Source: Candidatus Cryptobacteroides merdigallinarum (GTDB lineage Bacteria > Bacteroidota > Bacteroidia > Bacteroidales > UBA932). From it: a stretch of DNA of 55,285 bases. Made by a program: the position numbers and the translations under genes. Location of the stretch: the NCBI GenBank assembly GCA_017694655.1, contig JADIMQ010000088.1:1-55285 (forward strand), in the 5' to 3' direction. Positions 1-12,889 of this stretch are shown here, one piece after another; the first letter of the stretch is position 1; each line of letters begins with the position of its first letter. The notes below the pieces were generated by a model. It worked only from the letters and a program-made list of their open reading frames with translations. It was not told where the DNA came from and made no database searches.

Positions 1-160
1 GGGCCCCCAGCGAGGGGGCACATGGGGGTGGCGCCCCTTGAAAAGGGGCTGTCGCCACAGCGACTGGGGTTTAAGATAATTGGATTTCGAAGAAATCCTT
101 AACGACTGTTCGACGAATTCCTTAGTCCTGAGCAACATAAATTCGTCGAACTGACGTTAA
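1..160. repeat. Hairpin-chain element A, copy 1 (left end cut off by window edge)
   Basis: Near-identical to 12695-12849: same GCCCC(C)-AGCGA-(G)GGGGC, GTCGC-NACA-GCGAC, GGATTTC-GAA-GAAATCC hairpins and terminal TTAACG..GTTCGACGAATT..AATTCGTCGAAC..CGTTAA palindrome. Confidence 0.9.
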
Positions 161-202
161 ATTTGTACGTGAATAACCGCATAACGATAATAACACTGGA
201 AA

Positions 203-5390: not shown

Positions 5391-6526
5391 TGAGAAAGGT
5401 ATTTTCTATTGTCCATCTGTGGTTGTCAGTCCCTTTCGGGCTGATAATCACTTTGGTATGTTTTTCCGGTGCCATGCTTGTCTTCGAGAAGGAACTGACG
5501 GAGCTGACGCACCGGGACTTCTATTTTACCGATGTCCCGGAAGGGACCGGGCCCTTGCCTGCTGACAGCGTGGCGGCCATTGTGGCTGCGGCCCTCCCCG
5601 AAGGCGTGGAGGTGACCGGTGTAAGCATCTTCCCCGACCCGGAGCGCACCTGGAAGGTAAGCCTTTCCGAGCCGCGCCGGGCCTCTGTCCATGTCGACCA
5701 GTTTACCGGGGAGATCCTGGGCCGGGAAGAAAGGGGGGCTTTCTTCACCTTCATGTTCAGGATGCACCGCTGGCTCCTTGACAGCATGAAGCCGGGCGAG
5801 ACTGTCTTCTGGGGCAAGATAATCGTAGGGACGTCTACCCTTATGTTCGTGCCGGTCCTGCTTTCCGGACTCGTGATGTGGTGGCCGCGTACGGCCAGGG
5901 CCCTGAAATCCAGGCTGAAGATATCCGTGAGGAAGGGCTGGACCCGCTTCTGGCACGACCTGCACGTGGCAGGAGGCCTGTATGCCTGCATCTTCCTGCT
6001 TGCAATGGCACTGACAGGGCTGACATGGTCCTTCAAGTGGTACAGGACCGGTTTCTACAAGGTCTTCGGGGCCGGGGCTCCCGCCGCCGGCGGGCATTCC
6101 CTGCGGCAGTCTTCCCCTGCACATTCAGGAGATTCCACACTGCCTGCCGCAGTCTGGCAGAAGGTATATGAACGGCTTGCATCAGAAAACCCGGACTATG
6201 CCAGGATAACGGTCTCTGACGGAGAAGCTTCCGTCCAGCATTCCGGTCCGGGCAACAGCCGGGCTTCCGACACATACCGTTTCAACAGGGAGGACGGTTC
6301 CATAACCTCCGTTTCCCTGTACCGGGATGCCTCCTCCTCCGCGAAACTCCGTGGATGGATATACTCTGTACATACCGGCTCCTGGGGCGGCCTCGTAACT
6401 CGTGTCCTTTCCTTCCTTGCCGCCCTCACAGGAGCCTTCCTGCCGCTGACGGGTTACTGGCTGTGGCTGCGCAGAATCCTGCGCAGGCGTCAGGGGCCTG
6501 TCAGAAGTCTTTCAGGAACGGCTTGA
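5387..6526 (+). CDS. PepSY-associated TM helix protein
   Basis: 'FSIVHLWLSVPFGLIITLVCFSGAMLVFEKEL', 'MFRMHRWLLD', four TM segments. Confidence 0.88.
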   Translation: MMRKVFSIVHLWLSVPFGLIITLVCFSGAMLVFEKELTELTHRDFYFTDVPEGTGPLPADSVAAIVAAALPEGVEVTGVSIFPDPERTWKVSLSEPRRASVHVDQFTGEILGREERGAFFTFMFRMHRWLLDSMKPGETVFWGKIIVGTSTLMFVPVLLSGLVMWWPRTARALKSRLKISVRKGWTRFWHDLHVAGGLYACIFLLAMALTGLTWSFKWYRTGFYKVFGAGAPAAGGHSLRQSSPAHSGDSTLPAAVWQKVYERLASENPDYARITVSDGEASVQHSGPGNSRASDTYRFNREDGSITSVSLYRDASSSAKLRGWIYSVHTGSWGGLVTRVLSFLAALTGAFLPLTGYWLWLRRILRRRQGPVRSLSGTA

Positions 6527-7745
6527 CTACCCCGAACAGGAGATAGGCCACTCCGAGTGTGACGATAATGTTGAAGGTCTGGGCCAGCAGGAATACCCCG
6601 AGCGGCTTCCTGTTTTCCTTCCCGAAGATTTCCTTGAACCTCGTCTCAAGCCCTATGCACACGAAGGCAATGCTGAACAGTGTGTTCTGGAAGCCTTTCG
6701 TCACCTTTCCCACGGCTTTTGCCGCTTCAGGTTCGAAGCAGAAGCTGAACACCAGCGAGGCAAGCACGAACCCGACCACGAACTTCGGGAACCTGTCCCA
6801 TATGACCGAGGCCGACGGCTTCTCGCTGTGGTTCTTGCCCTGGTAGGACCACATTATCGAGATTATGAAGGCTGCTATCCCGAGCAGCACGTTCTGGGAC
6901 GACTTCACTATGATTGCGGTGTTCGCGGCTTCTTCCCCGACAAGGGCTCCCGAGGCCGCCACCGCACCTGTGGTGTCTATTGTCCCTCCGAGCCAGGCCC
7001 CAGTCACGTCCTGCGGCAGGTTCATCAGGTCCGCGAGCCACGGCAGGAGATACATCATCGGGATTGCGATTATCAGTACCAGGGAGACCACGTACGAAAG
7101 TTTCTTCTTGTCCCCGTTTATGACCCCTGATGTCGCTATCGCGGCCGATACCCCGCAGATGGAGACGGCGCTCGCCAGCATTGTGTTCATCTCCGGGTCC
7201 ACCTTCATCTTCTTTCCTGTCCAGAAGGCCATGTACCACACCGTGAACACTACTATGAGCGACTGGGCCAGGCCATAGGCCCCGGATTTCAGGACTTCCC
7301 CGAAAAGGATGGTCGACCCGAGGCAGATTATACCTATCTTTATATAGAACTCGCTCTGTACCGCGGACTTGAGCCACTCCGGGAGCTTGAAGCAGTTGCT
7401 GAGCAGAAGTCCGAGTATCACGGCGAAGAACACCGGCTCGAACCCGTATTCCTTTACCACAGGTATGGATGCTATCAGCTGCGAGGCGAGCGTGAGCGCG
7501 AAGATCACGAGCAGCGAGGGAAGTATCCATTTCAGGGGCTTCCCGAGTGCCGCGGAGGTGACATAAGTGAGAATCAGTACAAAAAGGAACATATAGCCTG
7601 CGGACAGCCAGTCCGACAGGGTGGTGAGCGACTGCGGCATTGCCGGCATCGAGTCCGGGAAGACAGCTGCAAGAGCCAGGATCACCGCCCCGGCGAACAC
7701 TATTATCCAGTCTTCCGATGTAAATTGTTTAAGCCATTTTTTCAT
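6501..7745 (-). CDS. YeiH family putative sulfate exporter (UPF0324)
   Basis: 414 aa; 'ICGVSAAIATSGVI', 'GAWLGGTIDTTGAVAASGALVGE'. Confidence 0.88.
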   Translation of the reverse strand: MKKWLKQFTSEDWIIVFAGAVILALAAVFPDSMPAMPQSLTTLSDWLSAGYMFLFVLILTYVTSAALGKPLKWILPSLLVIFALTLASQLIASIPVVKEYGFEPVFFAVILGLLLSNCFKLPEWLKSAVQSEFYIKIGIICLGSTILFGEVLKSGAYGLAQSLIVVFTVWYMAFWTGKKMKVDPEMNTMLASAVSICGVSAAIATSGVINGDKKKLSYVVSLVLIIAIPMMYLLPWLADLMNLPQDVTGAWLGGTIDTTGAVAASGALVGEEAANTAIIVKSSQNVLLGIAAFIISIMWSYQGKNHSEKPSASVIWDRFPKFVVGFVLASLVFSFCFEPEAAKAVGKVTKGFQNTLFSIAFVCIGLETRFKEIFGKENRKPLGVFLLAQTFNIIVTLGVAYLLFGVVKPFLKDF

Positions 7746-7776: not shown

Positions 7777-7960
7777 ATAGAATCTGTTTAAAATTTTTCA
7801 AAATTGATTGTCCCGGGGAGAGTTTTGCCTTTTGTACACAAGAATCCCCGGTTTGTCTTGTTTAATTGTAAGCCCCGCACAATCTGCATACTTTTGGTCC
7901 TGTAACGACATCCTGAACAGTTTTTGCGAGGACAGTGTTCCATTTTCAAAAAAAATTTCA

Positions 7961-7968
7961 TAGCTTTG
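7961..7968 (+). promoter_or_regulatory. -7 box TAGCTTTG for his leader/operon
   Basis: TAnnTTTG match 18 nt before leader-peptide ATG. Confidence 0.55.
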
Positions 7969-7985
7969 TAGGGAACGATACAAAC

Positions 7986-8042
7986 ATGACAGCAGCCCTT
8001 TCATACAGCATCCGCCACCACCATCATATAGGCAGTATATGA
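7986..8042 (+). CDS. hisL: Histidine operon leader peptide MTAALSYSIRHHHHIGSI
   Basis: 18-codon ORF with four consecutive His codons (8016-8027: CAC CAC CAT CAT), between a -7 box and an intrinsic terminator, upstream of hisG. Confidence 0.85.
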   Translation: MTAALSYSIRHHHHIGSI

Positions 8043-8082
8043 CGGCAGTCCGGATCTTGTATGAGGGATACAGATAATTTTG

Positions 8083-8113
8083 GAGCTTGCCGTGCCTGCG
8101 GCAGGCTCTTTTT
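8083..8113 (+). terminator. Attenuator terminator of the his operon
   Basis: GAGCTTGCCG (8083-8092) / CGGCAGGCTC (8099-8108), 10-bp stem with one G-U, loop TGCCTG, followed by TTTTT. Confidence 0.85.
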
Positions 8114-8159
8114 CGTCTGGCTGGCTACCTGAAATTTTTTTACTGTAAAACGGACTTTT

Positions 8160-9011
8160 ATGTTGAGAATCGCCCTGCAGTCCAAAGGAAGACTGAATGA
8201 AAAGAGCGTGGAACTTCTGCGCGAAGCCGGCATCAGCATCGGGGAAAACAACCGGCGCCTCCTTTCCCGTTCCCCCAATTTCCCTGTCGAGGTACTCTAC
8301 CTCAGGGACGACGACATTCCCCAGACCGTGTCCTGCGGCATCGCGGACCTCGGTATCGTCGGGCTCAACGAGGTGGAGGAGAGAGGCCATCCTGTGGATA
8401 TACTCCAGCATCTCGGGTTCGGGAAGTGCAGGCTCTCCCTCGCAATCCCGGCCTATATCGGATACACCGGTCCTGGCTTTTTCGAGGGACGGAAGGTCGC
8501 CACGTCCTATCCACGCATCCTGAAGGCATATTTCGAGGAAAAGAATATAAGGTGCGAGATACGTGAGATTGCCGGCAGCGTGGAGATTTCCCCATCCATA
8601 GGCCTGGCCGACGGCATTTTCGACATTGTGAGCAGCGGGGGGACCCTTGTCCAGAACGGGCTTGCGGAGGTGGAGAAGGTGATGGATTCCGATGCCGTCC
8701 TCATAGGTACTCCGGGCCTTGACGGGGAGAAGATGCAGACCGTCCGTACCCTGATGTCGCGCTTTACCTCCGTGCTTCGGAGCCGAGGCAAGAAATACAT
8801 GCTTGTGAATGTGCCTAATGACAGGATAGACGAGGCCCTGGAGATAATCCCGTCCATGAAGAGCCCCACCCTTCTCCCGCTTGCCGACAAGGGCTGGAGC
8901 GCCATCCATGCCGTCATCGATGAGTCCGAGGTCTGGGACATGGCGGACCGCCTGAAGGCCATAGGCGCAGAAGACATACTTGTTCTCTCAATGGAAAAAC
9001 TCATAATATGA
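8160..9011 (+). CDS. hisG: ATP phosphoribosyltransferase (long form)
   Basis: 283 aa; 'MLRIALQSKGRLNEKSVELL', 'GLADGIFDIVSSGGTLVQNGL'. Confidence 0.97.
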   Translation: MLRIALQSKGRLNEKSVELLREAGISIGENNRRLLSRSPNFPVEVLYLRDDDIPQTVSCGIADLGIVGLNEVEERGHPVDILQHLGFGKCRLSLAIPAYIGYTGPGFFEGRKVATSYPRILKAYFEEKNIRCEIREIAGSVEISPSIGLADGIFDIVSSGGTLVQNGLAEVEKVMDSDAVLIGTPGLDGEKMQTVRTLMSRFTSVLRSRGKKYMLVNVPNDRIDEALEIIPSMKSPTLLPLADKGWSAIHAVIDESEVWDMADRLKAIGAEDILVLSMEKLII

Positions 9012-10297
9012 AAATATACAGATATCCCCAGGAAAAAGACTGGAGCCTCATTGCCGGGCGCACCAGGGCAGGTGCTCCGGAGCAGGTGAAGTCCACAGTC
9101 TCGGCCATTGTTTCCGGAGTCCGGGCCGGAGGGGACAGGGAAGTCCTCAGGTACGTCAGGGAGCTTGACGGTTTCGCGGCGGACTCTGTCACGGGGCTTA
9201 TGGTCCCTCAAGCCGAGATAGAGGCCTCGGAGTCGCTGCTGCCGGAGTCCCTCAAGTCCGCAATACGTACGGCTGCCTCGAATATCCGGAAGTTCCATGA
9301 AGCGCAGAAGACGGAGGAGATAGTCGTGGAGACCATGCCGGGAGTGATATGCCGGCAGAGAAGTGTCCCTGTCCGGGATGTAGGCCTTTATGTGCCCGGG
9401 GGTACGGCCCCGCTTTTCTCCACTGTGCTGATGCTCGCTGTCCCGGCCCGGATAGCAGGGTGCGGCAGGGTCATCCTCTGCACACCTGCGGGAAAGGACG
9501 GGAGAGTGTCCCCTGCCATCCTGTACTCTGCTAAGATATGCGGTGTCACGGAAATATACAGGATAGGAGGTGCGGTTGCCATAGCCGCCATGGCCTACGG
9601 GACAGAGACTCTCCGGAGGGTCGACAAGATATTCGGACCCGGGAATGCCTATGTCACGGAAGCCAAGCAGCAGGTTTCCCAGGACTGTGCCATAGATATG
9701 CCGGCAGGCCCTTCGGAGGTCATGATAATTGCCGACTCCAGCGCGAGGCCGGAATTTGTCGGGGCGGACTTCCTCTCCCAGCTTGAACACGGGCGGGACA
9801 GCCAGGCAATCCTCCTGACAACCTCTCCGGAGCTTGCCGGGGAGGTGGAAAGGCAGGTGGAACTGCAGGTGCAGAACCTCCCGAGGAAGGATATCATTGC
9901 GGATTCCATGCAGAAGAGCGTGGCTGTCGTCCTGGGCTCCGAGGAAGAGATGGTGAAGTTCTCGAACATGTACGCCCCGGAGCACCTTATCATAGCCACT
10001 TCCTGCAGCCTCGCCACGGCGGAAGGCATCTGCAATGCGGGGAGCGTGTTCCTCGGGAACTATTCCACGGAGAGTGCAGGAGACTATGCCTCGGGCACTA
10101 ACCATACCCTGCCCACGGGAGGCTGGGCAGTCTCCTGCTCCGGAGTCAACCTGTCGACATTCATGAAGAAGATCACCCTGCAGGAAATCACCCCGGACGG
10201 CCTCAGGAGGCTCGGTCCGGTGATAGAAAGCATGGCTCTGGCCGAAGGCCTCGACGCTCATGCCAATGCAGTGAAAATAAGGATGAAGCAGCTATGA
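9008..10297 (+). CDS. hisD: Histidinol dehydrogenase
   Basis: 429 aa; 'VGLYVPGGTAPLFSTVLM', 'DKIFGPGNAYVTEAKQQV', 'GPSEVMIIAD'; 4-nt overlap with hisG. Confidence 0.97.
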   Translation: MKIYRYPQEKDWSLIAGRTRAGAPEQVKSTVSAIVSGVRAGGDREVLRYVRELDGFAADSVTGLMVPQAEIEASESLLPESLKSAIRTAASNIRKFHEAQKTEEIVVETMPGVICRQRSVPVRDVGLYVPGGTAPLFSTVLMLAVPARIAGCGRVILCTPAGKDGRVSPAILYSAKICGVTEIYRIGGAVAIAAMAYGTETLRRVDKIFGPGNAYVTEAKQQVSQDCAIDMPAGPSEVMIIADSSARPEFVGADFLSQLEHGRDSQAILLTTSPELAGEVERQVELQVQNLPRKDIIADSMQKSVAVVLGSEEEMVKFSNMYAPEHLIIATSCSLATAEGICNAGSVFLGNYSTESAGDYASGTNHTLPTGGWAVSCSGVNLSTFMKKITLQEITPDGLRRLGPVIESMALAEGLDAHANAVKIRMKQL

Positions 10298-11955
10298 CAA
10301 GGAAAGATACATCCTCCATCTCCGAAATCCGGCCCCTGCTCAGGGAGAATATCCGGAATATCGTGCCCTATTCCACGGCCAGGGACGACTGCAAGGCGAA
10401 GATGGACATCTACCTCGACGCCAACGAAAACCCTTTCGGTACAGTAGTCAACCGTTATCCTTCGCCGCACCAGCCCGGGCTGAAGAAGATGCTTTCGGCC
10501 TTGAAGAAAGTGCCGGAGGCCAATATTTTCCTCGGCAACGGTAGCGACGAGCCCATAGACCTGATATTCCGGCTTTTCTGTCCTCCTGGGAAGAGCAGTA
10601 TGGTACAGGCCGTCCCGACTTACGGGATGTATTCGGTAGCAGCCGCCATAAACGATGTCAGGGTCATAGATTCACCTCTCGACAGTGATTTCGGGCTTGA
10701 TGCCGGTGCCTTGCTTTCAAGGGTTGAGCCGGATACCAGGGTGATATTCCTGTGTTCCCCGAACAACCCTTCCGGGAACCTTCTTTCCCGGGGCGAGATT
10801 ATGAGGATACTGGAGGGTTTCAGCGGTATTGTGGTCGTGGACGAGGCGTACATTGACTTTGCCGATGCCGAAAGTTTTTCCGGACTCGCGGGCAGCTGTC
10901 CACGCCTTGTTGTCCTGCAGACCTTGTCCAAGGCCTGGGGCATGGCCGGGTTGAGGATAGGGCTCGCCATAGCCGACGAATATGTCGTAAGGGTGATGTC
11001 CGGGGTGAAATATCCCTACAACATAAGTGTAGCGGACCAGGACCGGGCCGCGGAGCTGCTCATGGACCCGCTGAAGGTCATGGACAACGTCTCGGTACTG
11101 GTGCGGGAGCGCGGACGGCTCGCTTCCGCCCTTTCCTCCCTGCCGCAGGTGGAGAAGGTCTATCCGTCGGACGCCAATTTCCTTCTTGTCAGGTTCAGTG
11201 ACAAGGACAAGGCCTTCGCCGACCTGTTCAGGAACGGGATAATAGTCCGGGACAGGTCTTCAGCCCCGGGTTGTGCAGGCTGCCTGAGGATCACTGTAGG
11301 CACTCCGGAGGAGAATGACAGGGTTCTCGGGGTCCTGGGCTGGAGCGGCGCTCCCGGTACAGGACCCTCCGTCCAGGGCGGGAGGACGGCCTCGGTGTTC
11401 AGGAAAACGAGGGAGACGGCCTTATGTGTCCGCCTGGACCTTGACTCCTTCCGTCCCCCGAGGGTGGCCACGGGTGTGGAGTTCTTCAACCACATGCTGG
11501 AACAGATAGGCTACCATGCCGGCATTGCCCTCGATGTTATCTGCTACGGGGACACCGGGACGGATGACCATCATACCGTAGAGGATGTGGCCATAGGCCT
11601 TGGGGACTGCCTCAGGTCTGCCCTCGGGGACAAGTCCGGGATAGGGCGCTACGGCTTCTCGCTCCCGATGGACGAGGCCGAGGCGACGGTGCTCATGGAT
11701 ATCGGGGGCCGGATTGATTTCCTCTGGGACGTGGACCTGAAGTGTGACAGGGTGGGGGACATGTCGGCGCAGATGTTCCCGCATTTCTTCAAGTCCCTCG
11801 CGGAACATCTCCAGTGCAATCTCCATATAAGGGCTGCAGGGGAGAATGACCACCATGTCGCCGAAGGGGTGTTCAAGGCTTTTGCCAGGGCCCTGAAGCA
11901 GGCCGTGGAGAAGGGGCCGGGGACCTCTGTCCCGAGCAGCAAGGGGATGCTTTGA
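10294..11955 (+). CDS. hisC-hisB: Fusion: histidinol-phosphate aminotransferase (HisC) + imidazoleglycerol-phosphate dehydratase (IGPD, HisB C-terminal type)
   Basis: N-terminal ~345 aa HisC ('YLDANENPFG', 'LQTLSKAWGMAGLRIG'); C-terminal ~190 aa IGPD ('GVEFFNHMLEQIGYHAG', 'DDHHTVEDVAIGLG', 'DHHVAEGVFKAFARAL'); single frame. Confidence 0.92.
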   Translation: MTRKDTSSISEIRPLLRENIRNIVPYSTARDDCKAKMDIYLDANENPFGTVVNRYPSPHQPGLKKMLSALKKVPEANIFLGNGSDEPIDLIFRLFCPPGKSSMVQAVPTYGMYSVAAAINDVRVIDSPLDSDFGLDAGALLSRVEPDTRVIFLCSPNNPSGNLLSRGEIMRILEGFSGIVVVDEAYIDFADAESFSGLAGSCPRLVVLQTLSKAWGMAGLRIGLAIADEYVVRVMSGVKYPYNISVADQDRAAELLMDPLKVMDNVSVLVRERGRLASALSSLPQVEKVYPSDANFLLVRFSDKDKAFADLFRNGIIVRDRSSAPGCAGCLRITVGTPEENDRVLGVLGWSGAPGTGPSVQGGRTASVFRKTRETALCVRLDLDSFRPPRVATGVEFFNHMLEQIGYHAGIALDVICYGDTGTDDHHTVEDVAIGLGDCLRSALGDKSGIGRYGFSLPMDEAEATVLMDIGGRIDFLWDVDLKCDRVGDMSAQMFPHFFKSLAEHLQCNLHIRAAGENDHHVAEGVFKAFARALKQAVEKGPGTSVPSSKGML

Positions 11956-12013: not shown

Positions 12014-12613
12014 ATGACAGGAATAATAGACTATGAAGCCGGCAACATCCGTTCGGTGGAGAATTCCCTCTGCCGGCTGGGGGCGGAATATGTGCTTTCT
12101 TCCGACATCGCGGTGCTGTCCGCCTGCGACCGGCTTATTCTCCCCGGGGTGGGCGAGGCCGGCTGGGCGATGGAGAGGCTCAGGGAAAAGGGCCTGGACG
12201 GATTCATCCGCGGCACCTGCAGGCCGCTTCTCGGGATATGCCTCGGGATGCAGCTGCTCTGCTCCTGGTCCGAGGAGGGTGACACGGAGTGTCTCGGCAT
12301 ATTCGGCAGCAGGGTGACAAGGTTCCGGCCTTCTTCTTCCCCGGGCCCGAAGCTGAAGATCCCGCATACGGGCTGGAACAGCATAACCTCCCTGCGGACC
12401 GGGCTTTTCGACGGTGTCCCGGAGGGCTCGTTCATGTATTTCGTCCATTCGTACCGTGCCGGGACCGGCGAGGATACGGTTGCGGTGACGGAATACGGGG
12501 AGCCTTTCAGTTCAGCCTTGCGGAAGGGGAATTTCATGGGCTGCCAGTTCCATCCCGAGAAAAGCGGGGACGAGGGGGAGAGGATAATCTCCAATTTCCT
12601 GAAAATGGTTTAA
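12014..12613 (+). CDS. hisH: Imidazole glycerol phosphate synthase glutamine amidotransferase subunit
   Basis: 199 aa; 'GIIDYEAGNIRSVENSL', 'LLGICLGMQLL', 'GCQFHPEKSGDEG'. Confidence 0.96.
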   Translation: MTGIIDYEAGNIRSVENSLCRLGAEYVLSSDIAVLSACDRLILPGVGEAGWAMERLREKGLDGFIRGTCRPLLGICLGMQLLCSWSEEGDTECLGIFGSRVTRFRPSSSPGPKLKIPHTGWNSITSLRTGLFDGVPEGSFMYFVHSYRAGTGEDTVAVTEYGEPFSSALRKGNFMGCQFHPEKSGDEGERIISNFLKMV

Positions 12614-12615
12614 AG

Positions 12616-12849
12616 TAACGTGAGTTCGATGAATTTTAATTTATTGAAACTCATCGAACTTCCGTTAAGGAGCAGGACGAAAGTCCTGCGACGAGCCCCA
12701 GCGAGGGGCAAATGGGGTGGCGCCCCTAGAAAAGGGGCTGTCGCTACAGCGACTGGGGTTTAAGATAATTGGATTTCGAAGAAATCCTTAACGACTGTTC
12801 GACGAATTCTTTAGTCCTGAGCAACATTAATTCGTCGAACTGACGTTAA
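12616..12849. repeat. Hairpin-chain element A, copy 2 (complete, ~234 bp)
   Basis: Seven hairpins in series bounded by TAACGTGAGTTCGATGAATT / AATTCGTCGAACTGACGTTA inverted termini (18/20); near-identical to 1-160 over the shared part. Confidence 0.93.
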
Positions 12850-12889
12850 AAATGGATTTCACCTCTTCCGCAGGAGGGCCGGCACTGGA

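Follow-up and report, generated by a model that had tools for sequence, protein, structure and literature searches.

Results

The his operon and its leader region

The window, by which we mean the whole stretch of 55,285 nt analysed here, carries on its plus strand a run of histidine biosynthesis genes that begins with hisG (Table 1). The hisC and hisB parts are fused in a single reading frame, and three genomes of the same genus each match it in one stretch; the fusion (10294–11955) has no histidinol-phosphatase domain. The nearest upstream gene (6501–7745) lies on the minus strand, so a terminator on the plus strand cannot be the end of that gene. Following hisH, a repeat was found (12613–12860) whose arms, TTCGACGAATT / AATTCGTCGAA, are inverted; a copy of it occurs at the start of the window (5–161). 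The same repeat begins contig C8, which is 3.3 kb long and carries hisA-hisF-hisI; this contig starts 79 nt upstream of hisA, within the repeat, and in this short stretch no second His leader was found. As hisH runs straight into hisA in relatives, the operon is either split by the repeat in this organism, or broken or misjoined in the assembly.

For the region upstream of hisG, the initial annotation had claimed a leader ORF with a His run, two auxiliary hairpins, the two strands of an antiterminator and a 10-bp terminator followed by TTTTT. All of these elements are present in the window base for base. The ORF runs from an ATG at 7986 to a TGA stop codon at 8040–8042. Only the terminator had to be extended slightly: its full stem comprises 12 bp including G-U pairs at the end, with a loop of 4 nt, and contains the 10 bp described before.

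Table 1. The his operon of the window and the elements of its leader region.
Feature	Position	Strand	Basis
TAnnTTTG −7 box TAGCTTTG, putative primary sigma promoter	7961–7968	+	sequence
Predicted His leader peptide ORF MTAALSYSIRHHHHIGSI*, 18 codons	7986–8042	+	sequence and homologous His-run ORFs
Four consecutive His codons CAC CAC CAT CAT (CACCACCATCAT), sensor codons	8016–8027	+	sequence
Hairpin CATATA-GGCAG-TATATG, reaching from the last His codon to the stop codon	8025–8041	+	MFE fold
Antiterminator 5′ strand (segment 2) ACGGCAG, sharing the last base of the stop codon	8042–8048	+	complementary to the left arm of the terminator, with conservation and covariation
Spacer hairpin ATCTTGTAT / ATACAGAT, separating segment 2 from the terminator	8054–8075 (arms 8054–8062 / 8068–8075)	+	sequence
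Antiterminator 3′ strand (segment 3) TTGCCGT, inside the terminator left arm	8087–8093	+	sequence and conserved pairing
Intrinsic terminator hairpin GGAGCTTGCCGT-GCCT-GCGGCAGGCTCT	8082–8109	+	MFE fold, −20.6 kcal/mol
Terminator U tract TTTTT	8109–8113	+	sequence
hisG, ATP phosphoribosyltransferase (long form), first gene of the operon	8160–9011	+	Pfam HisG, HisG_C
hisD, histidinol dehydrogenase	9008–10297	+	Pfam PF00815
hisC-hisB fusion, aminotransferase and IGP dehydratase	10294–11955	+	Pfam PF00155 and PF00475 in one ORF
hisH-type glutamine amidotransferase subunit	12014–12613	+	Pfam GATase; homologues between hisCB and hisA in relatives

The folded leader region is much more stable than its dinucleotide shuffles: for its 146 nt we computed −55.5 kcal/mol (z −5.3), and none of 200 shuffles was as stable. 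The hairpin that begins in the last His codon presumably serves as a pause or protector-type hairpin. Its stem is kept with changed sequence in the two closest relatives, as CATAT/ATATG in L002 and CAGA/TCTG in L003. At the position equivalent to the spacer hairpin both relatives have unrelated stems, and this hairpin may act as a compaction helper.

When the window's hisG upstream region was shuffled, 6 of the 5000 resulting sequences contained a His cluster (at least four His in seven residues). The genome contains 26 sites with four consecutive His codons. Twenty of them were read and assessed visually for the length of the frame and its context; the sole His leader among these is the one in the window.

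His leaders upstream of hisG in Bacteroidales

Homologous leaders in related Bacteroidales, to which the initial annotation had pointed as a check, proved to be widespread. The hisG gene was found in 80 of 150 searched genomes, and 79 hisG upstream regions, including that of the window, were read. As a leader we accepted an ORF of 6–50 amino acids that starts with ATG within 330 nt upstream of hisG and has at least three (or, more stringently, at least four) His in seven residues. With the lower threshold, leaders were present at 67 of the 79 loci (shuffle expectation 1.1; reverse strands 3); with the higher one, at 62 (shuffle expectation 0.07; reverse strands 0). A terminator with a U tract was detected after the leader at 62 of the 67 loci, in the same order as in the window and usually 20–50 nt past the leader stop codon. 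Among the five loci missed by the detector, at least two (L016 and L059) show a terminator by eye at the equivalent place.

The leader peptides have little in common besides the His run, and their lengths and flanking sequences vary freely, as is expected of sensors. About 15% of the examined hisG loci have no His leader, which counts against the attenuator model; at these, hisG either lies behind another gene or has no visible leader.

A perfect TAnnTTTG box is located no more than 60 nt from the leader ATG at 38 of 62 loci, compared with 2.7 expected from shuffles. The distance from the end of the box to the ATG has a bimodal distribution among the 62 Bacteroidales his leaders, being either 4–9 nt or 16–23 nt; in the window it is 17 nt. 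In the short class, transcription would begin on the ATG or directly beside it, which would make the leader peptide itself leaderless.

Three loci, L018 (G102), L052 (G129) and L067 (G121), carry two complete units of His leader and terminator before hisG. At L052 the tandem leaders are MRTIKAHTALHHHHHHLNGMEK and MKNMKLHTVHHLHHHHWAGIPLWKCCSMP, and each has a terminator of its own behind it. For mgtCBR of Salmonella, tandem attenuators have been reported (PMC3641672).

Pairing of the leader stop region with the terminator

The relatives have a G-rich strand located at the stop codon of the leader; it pairs with the left arm of the terminator, and its centre lies at a median of 1.5 nt past the stop. 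Covariation of the stems had been named as a further check, and the antiterminator helix shows it. We analysed 28 relatives which could be anchored by the motifs GGYRRG and CTTRCC; the window, having GGCAGT, falls outside the strict motif. Every one of the 28 anchored relatives has the seven core positions paired, and covariation is seen in the two flanking pairs. The pair at offset −1 is formed in 26 of 28, using C-G, T-A, G-C and A-T (permutation mean 15.9, P < 0.0005), and that at offset −2 in 20 of 28 (P = 0.0015), both by a permutation that ignores shared ancestry. The variable spacers align poorly.

A separate, independent test points the same way. When leaders and terminators were exchanged between genomes in the fold model, antitermination was 0.77 for cognate pairs, 0.60 for swapped pairs (Wilcoxon P = 5e-11 for cognate versus swapped) and 0.51 for shuffled ones. 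Two properties of the window itself count against the model: its own antiterminator of 7 bp is shorter than that of most relatives, and this helix alone is not significant, being equalled by 7% of shuffles, or 5% in the fold model.

Predicted effect of ribosome position on folding

The RNA covered by a ribosome was masked and the transcript was folded at the stage before the right arm of the terminator is made; the width of the mask is an assumption. Over 62 leaders the mean antiterminator probability was 0.78 for a ribosome placed on an early His codon, compared with 0.32 for one at the stop codon. With four mask sizes, this order was never reversed by more than 0.25 in any of the 62 leaders.

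In the window, each of the four His codons gave an antiterminator probability of 0.81–0.82, compared with 0.26 for the stop codon and 0.16 for codon 1. Moving the ribosome along the ORF gave values of about 0.8 for codons 3–15, followed by a fall to 0.65 (codon 16), 0.28 (codon 17) and 0.21 (codon 18). In the model, the leader would thus behave as a classical three-state switch, with read-through when the ribosome is stalled at His codons and termination when it has finished or is still at the start. Some results count against so simple a scheme. With a downstream mask of 15 nt, the state at the stop codon is ambiguous in the window (0.52). Termination is not consistently favoured in leaders that are left untranslated (mean antiterminator probability 0.54 for the 62 leaders), and the window leader gave an antiterminator probability of 0.65 when left entirely free from the ATG onwards.

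Leaders in other Bacteroidota and for other amino acids

We read 69 further hisG loci from a wider set of Bacteroidota, one of which had already been seen. His-run leaders were again common, and a leader together with a strong terminator was present at 36. Here too the arms fit better within genomes than between them (helix score 14.9 for cognate and 12.2 for swapped arms). Eight loci (L107–L109, L130, L140, L141, L143 and L144) have clear His leaders before hisG and no strong intrinsic terminator. Control at such loci may be translational or Rho-dependent, and as the leader is kept where the intrinsic terminator is absent, the output may differ in these lineages.

Since other modes of output thus seem to exist in the phylum, translational or Rho-dependent control has to be considered for the window as well, with the terminator hairpin being incidental. 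We regard this as very improbable. A strong hairpin with a U tract is present in the window and at the other Bacteroidales loci, its left arm co-evolves with the leader stop region, and the start of hisG is about 46 nt beyond the hairpin and outside it.

Leaders of this type are not restricted to histidine. The leuA gene of this genome (G000, contig C55, locus L180) is preceded by the leader MRNYASILRLSLLQNFAG* and a terminator, and relatives have Leu/Ile-rich leaders with terminators before leuA (L182–L184). In one relative (L209), a leader with a Trp run, MKTLMNNIWWWHSNSFQTRM*, precedes a chorismate-binding (TrpE-type) gene. Attenuation seems to be general for amino-acid operons in this group. 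A chorismate-binding gene of the TrpE/PabB type was not found in the genome of the window (G000) or in three same-genus genomes (G041, G052 and G073), which suggests that tryptophan synthesis has been lost and histidine synthesis kept in these four.

Comparison with known RNA and protein families

The comparison with the Rfam family His_leader (RF00514), likewise recommended with the initial annotation, yielded no family match for this leader: none at the gathering score in the window and none at E values up to 10 within 7900–8200. Nothing relevant, RF00514 included, was found by Rfam in 20 related loci. The likeness to the enterobacterial leader is therefore functional and does not amount to membership of that Rfam family. 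Weak Rfam matches to DnaX, PVT1_3 and mir-4922 were far under the gathering scores and were judged to be due to chance. Four longer relatives of the leader peptide had no match in Pfam.

These searches also bear on the proposal that the ORF is not translated at all and that the His codons are coincidental, the RNA being a riboswitch that binds a ligand or a tRNA (a T-box or an aptamer of an unknown kind) and acts through the terminator. The stable, extended fold would suit such an RNA. However, the covariance model of the T-box had no match in the window or in the relaxed scan of the leader, no other Rfam family reached its gathering score, and the relaxed matches are weak and unrelated. Moreover, what is conserved is a His run in an open frame and not an RNA core, and the Leu-rich and Trp-rich leaders of the same group precede leu and trp genes. 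We consider a riboswitch even less probable than an incidental terminator. Least probable of all is a chance association of a His-rich ORF with an ordinary terminator: taken alone, a four-His ORF is expected about once in 800 cases and the 7-bp helix about once in 14–20, but the independent recurrence of both order and spacing in dozens of genomes already refutes a chance origin.

Discussion

We interpret the element upstream of hisG, whose anatomy, conservation and antiterminator covariation are shown above, as a ribosome-mediated attenuator acting on transcription of the his operon, and assign to this reading a probability of about 0.93. It has what characterizes a his leader-peptide attenuator: an ORF with His codons, an intrinsic terminator and an antiterminator that excludes it, the latter as computed. 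That the leader is translated, and that it responds to histidine, is inferred.

The proposed mechanism is as follows. RNA polymerase would start shortly 3′ of the TAGCTTTG box, and a ribosome would begin the leader peptide. With little His-tRNA available, this ribosome should stall on the four His codons; segment 2 (8042–8048) would then be free to pair with segment 3 (8087–8093), the terminator would be blocked, and hisGD(CB)H would be transcribed. When His-tRNA is plentiful, the ribosome would reach the stop codon and cover segment 2, so that the terminator (8082–8113) could form and transcription would stop before hisG. In an untranslated leader, upstream pairings are predicted to occupy segment 2, and termination would be favoured again.

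For Bacteroidales, a major order of the gut, this provides a concrete and testable candidate for an amino-acid sensor of a core biosynthetic operon. Leader-peptide attenuation of his genes appears to be common across the phylum, though Rfam has no family for it, and the set of leaders should be useful as a new RNA family and as a reporter of histidine limitation. Bacteroidota largely do without Shine-Dalgarno sites. We see an even chance that the phylum has its own ancestral class of compact His attenuators, unrelated in sequence to the proteobacterial His_leader, which operates in hosts largely free of Shine-Dalgarno sites, is apparently leaderless or nearly so in many lineages, and sometimes occurs as two in series.

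Ribosome-mediated attenuation is a textbook mechanism. The hisL leader of E. coli has seven His in its run; with four, the run in the window is shorter. The initial annotation was right in calling such attenuation classical in Enterobacteria; the leader in the window is, however, no isolated oddity, as His leaders are common in Bacteroidota. The kind of element is already known, while its occurrence in Bacteroidota is poorly catalogued, with flavobacterial hints published in 2021. A comparative survey of attenuators (Vitreschak et al., 2004) is said to mention candidates in Bacteroidetes/Chlorobi in its abstract.

A published case from Bacteroidota is the 2021 transcriptome of Flavobacterium psychrophilum, which, in the passages considered here, describes strong indications that amino-acid operons are attenuated through leader peptides, as well as a structured 5′ element of hisG that is conserved in Flavobacteriaceae and has no Rfam hit (PMC9723704). 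This element belongs to the same phylum as that of the window and is likewise without an Rfam match; the same passages give neither its sequence nor its mechanism (PMC9723704). The window belongs to a different order, Bacteroidales, and the covariation and the analysis across the phylum are additional here. A map of Bacteroides thetaiotaomicron refers in general terms to small ORFs resembling leader peptides in long 5′ UTRs (PMC7366714), and in a survey covering the his genes of this superphylum, attenuation comes up for enterics only (PMC8305728).

The same layout as in the window occurs in another phylum. Some His-leader attenuators of Firmicutes consist of a short ORF containing 3–5 His codons, with a terminator and an antiterminator behind it (PMC9413887; for hisS/hisZ, PMC2965389); Bacteroidota are not mentioned in the main text of either article. 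In E. coli, Salmonella and other gammaproteobacteria, hisL is, like the leader in the window, an ORF with consecutive His codons, a terminator before hisG and a competing antiterminator (PMC9413887, PMC1183508). The window leader matches the gammaproteobacterial hisL (RF00514) neither in sequence nor by covariance model. Compared with hisL, the RNA of the window is more compact, its antiterminator strand being located at the stop codon of the leader and pairing directly with the left arm of the terminator, and this RNA is preceded by a −7 promoter box of the Bacteroidota type.
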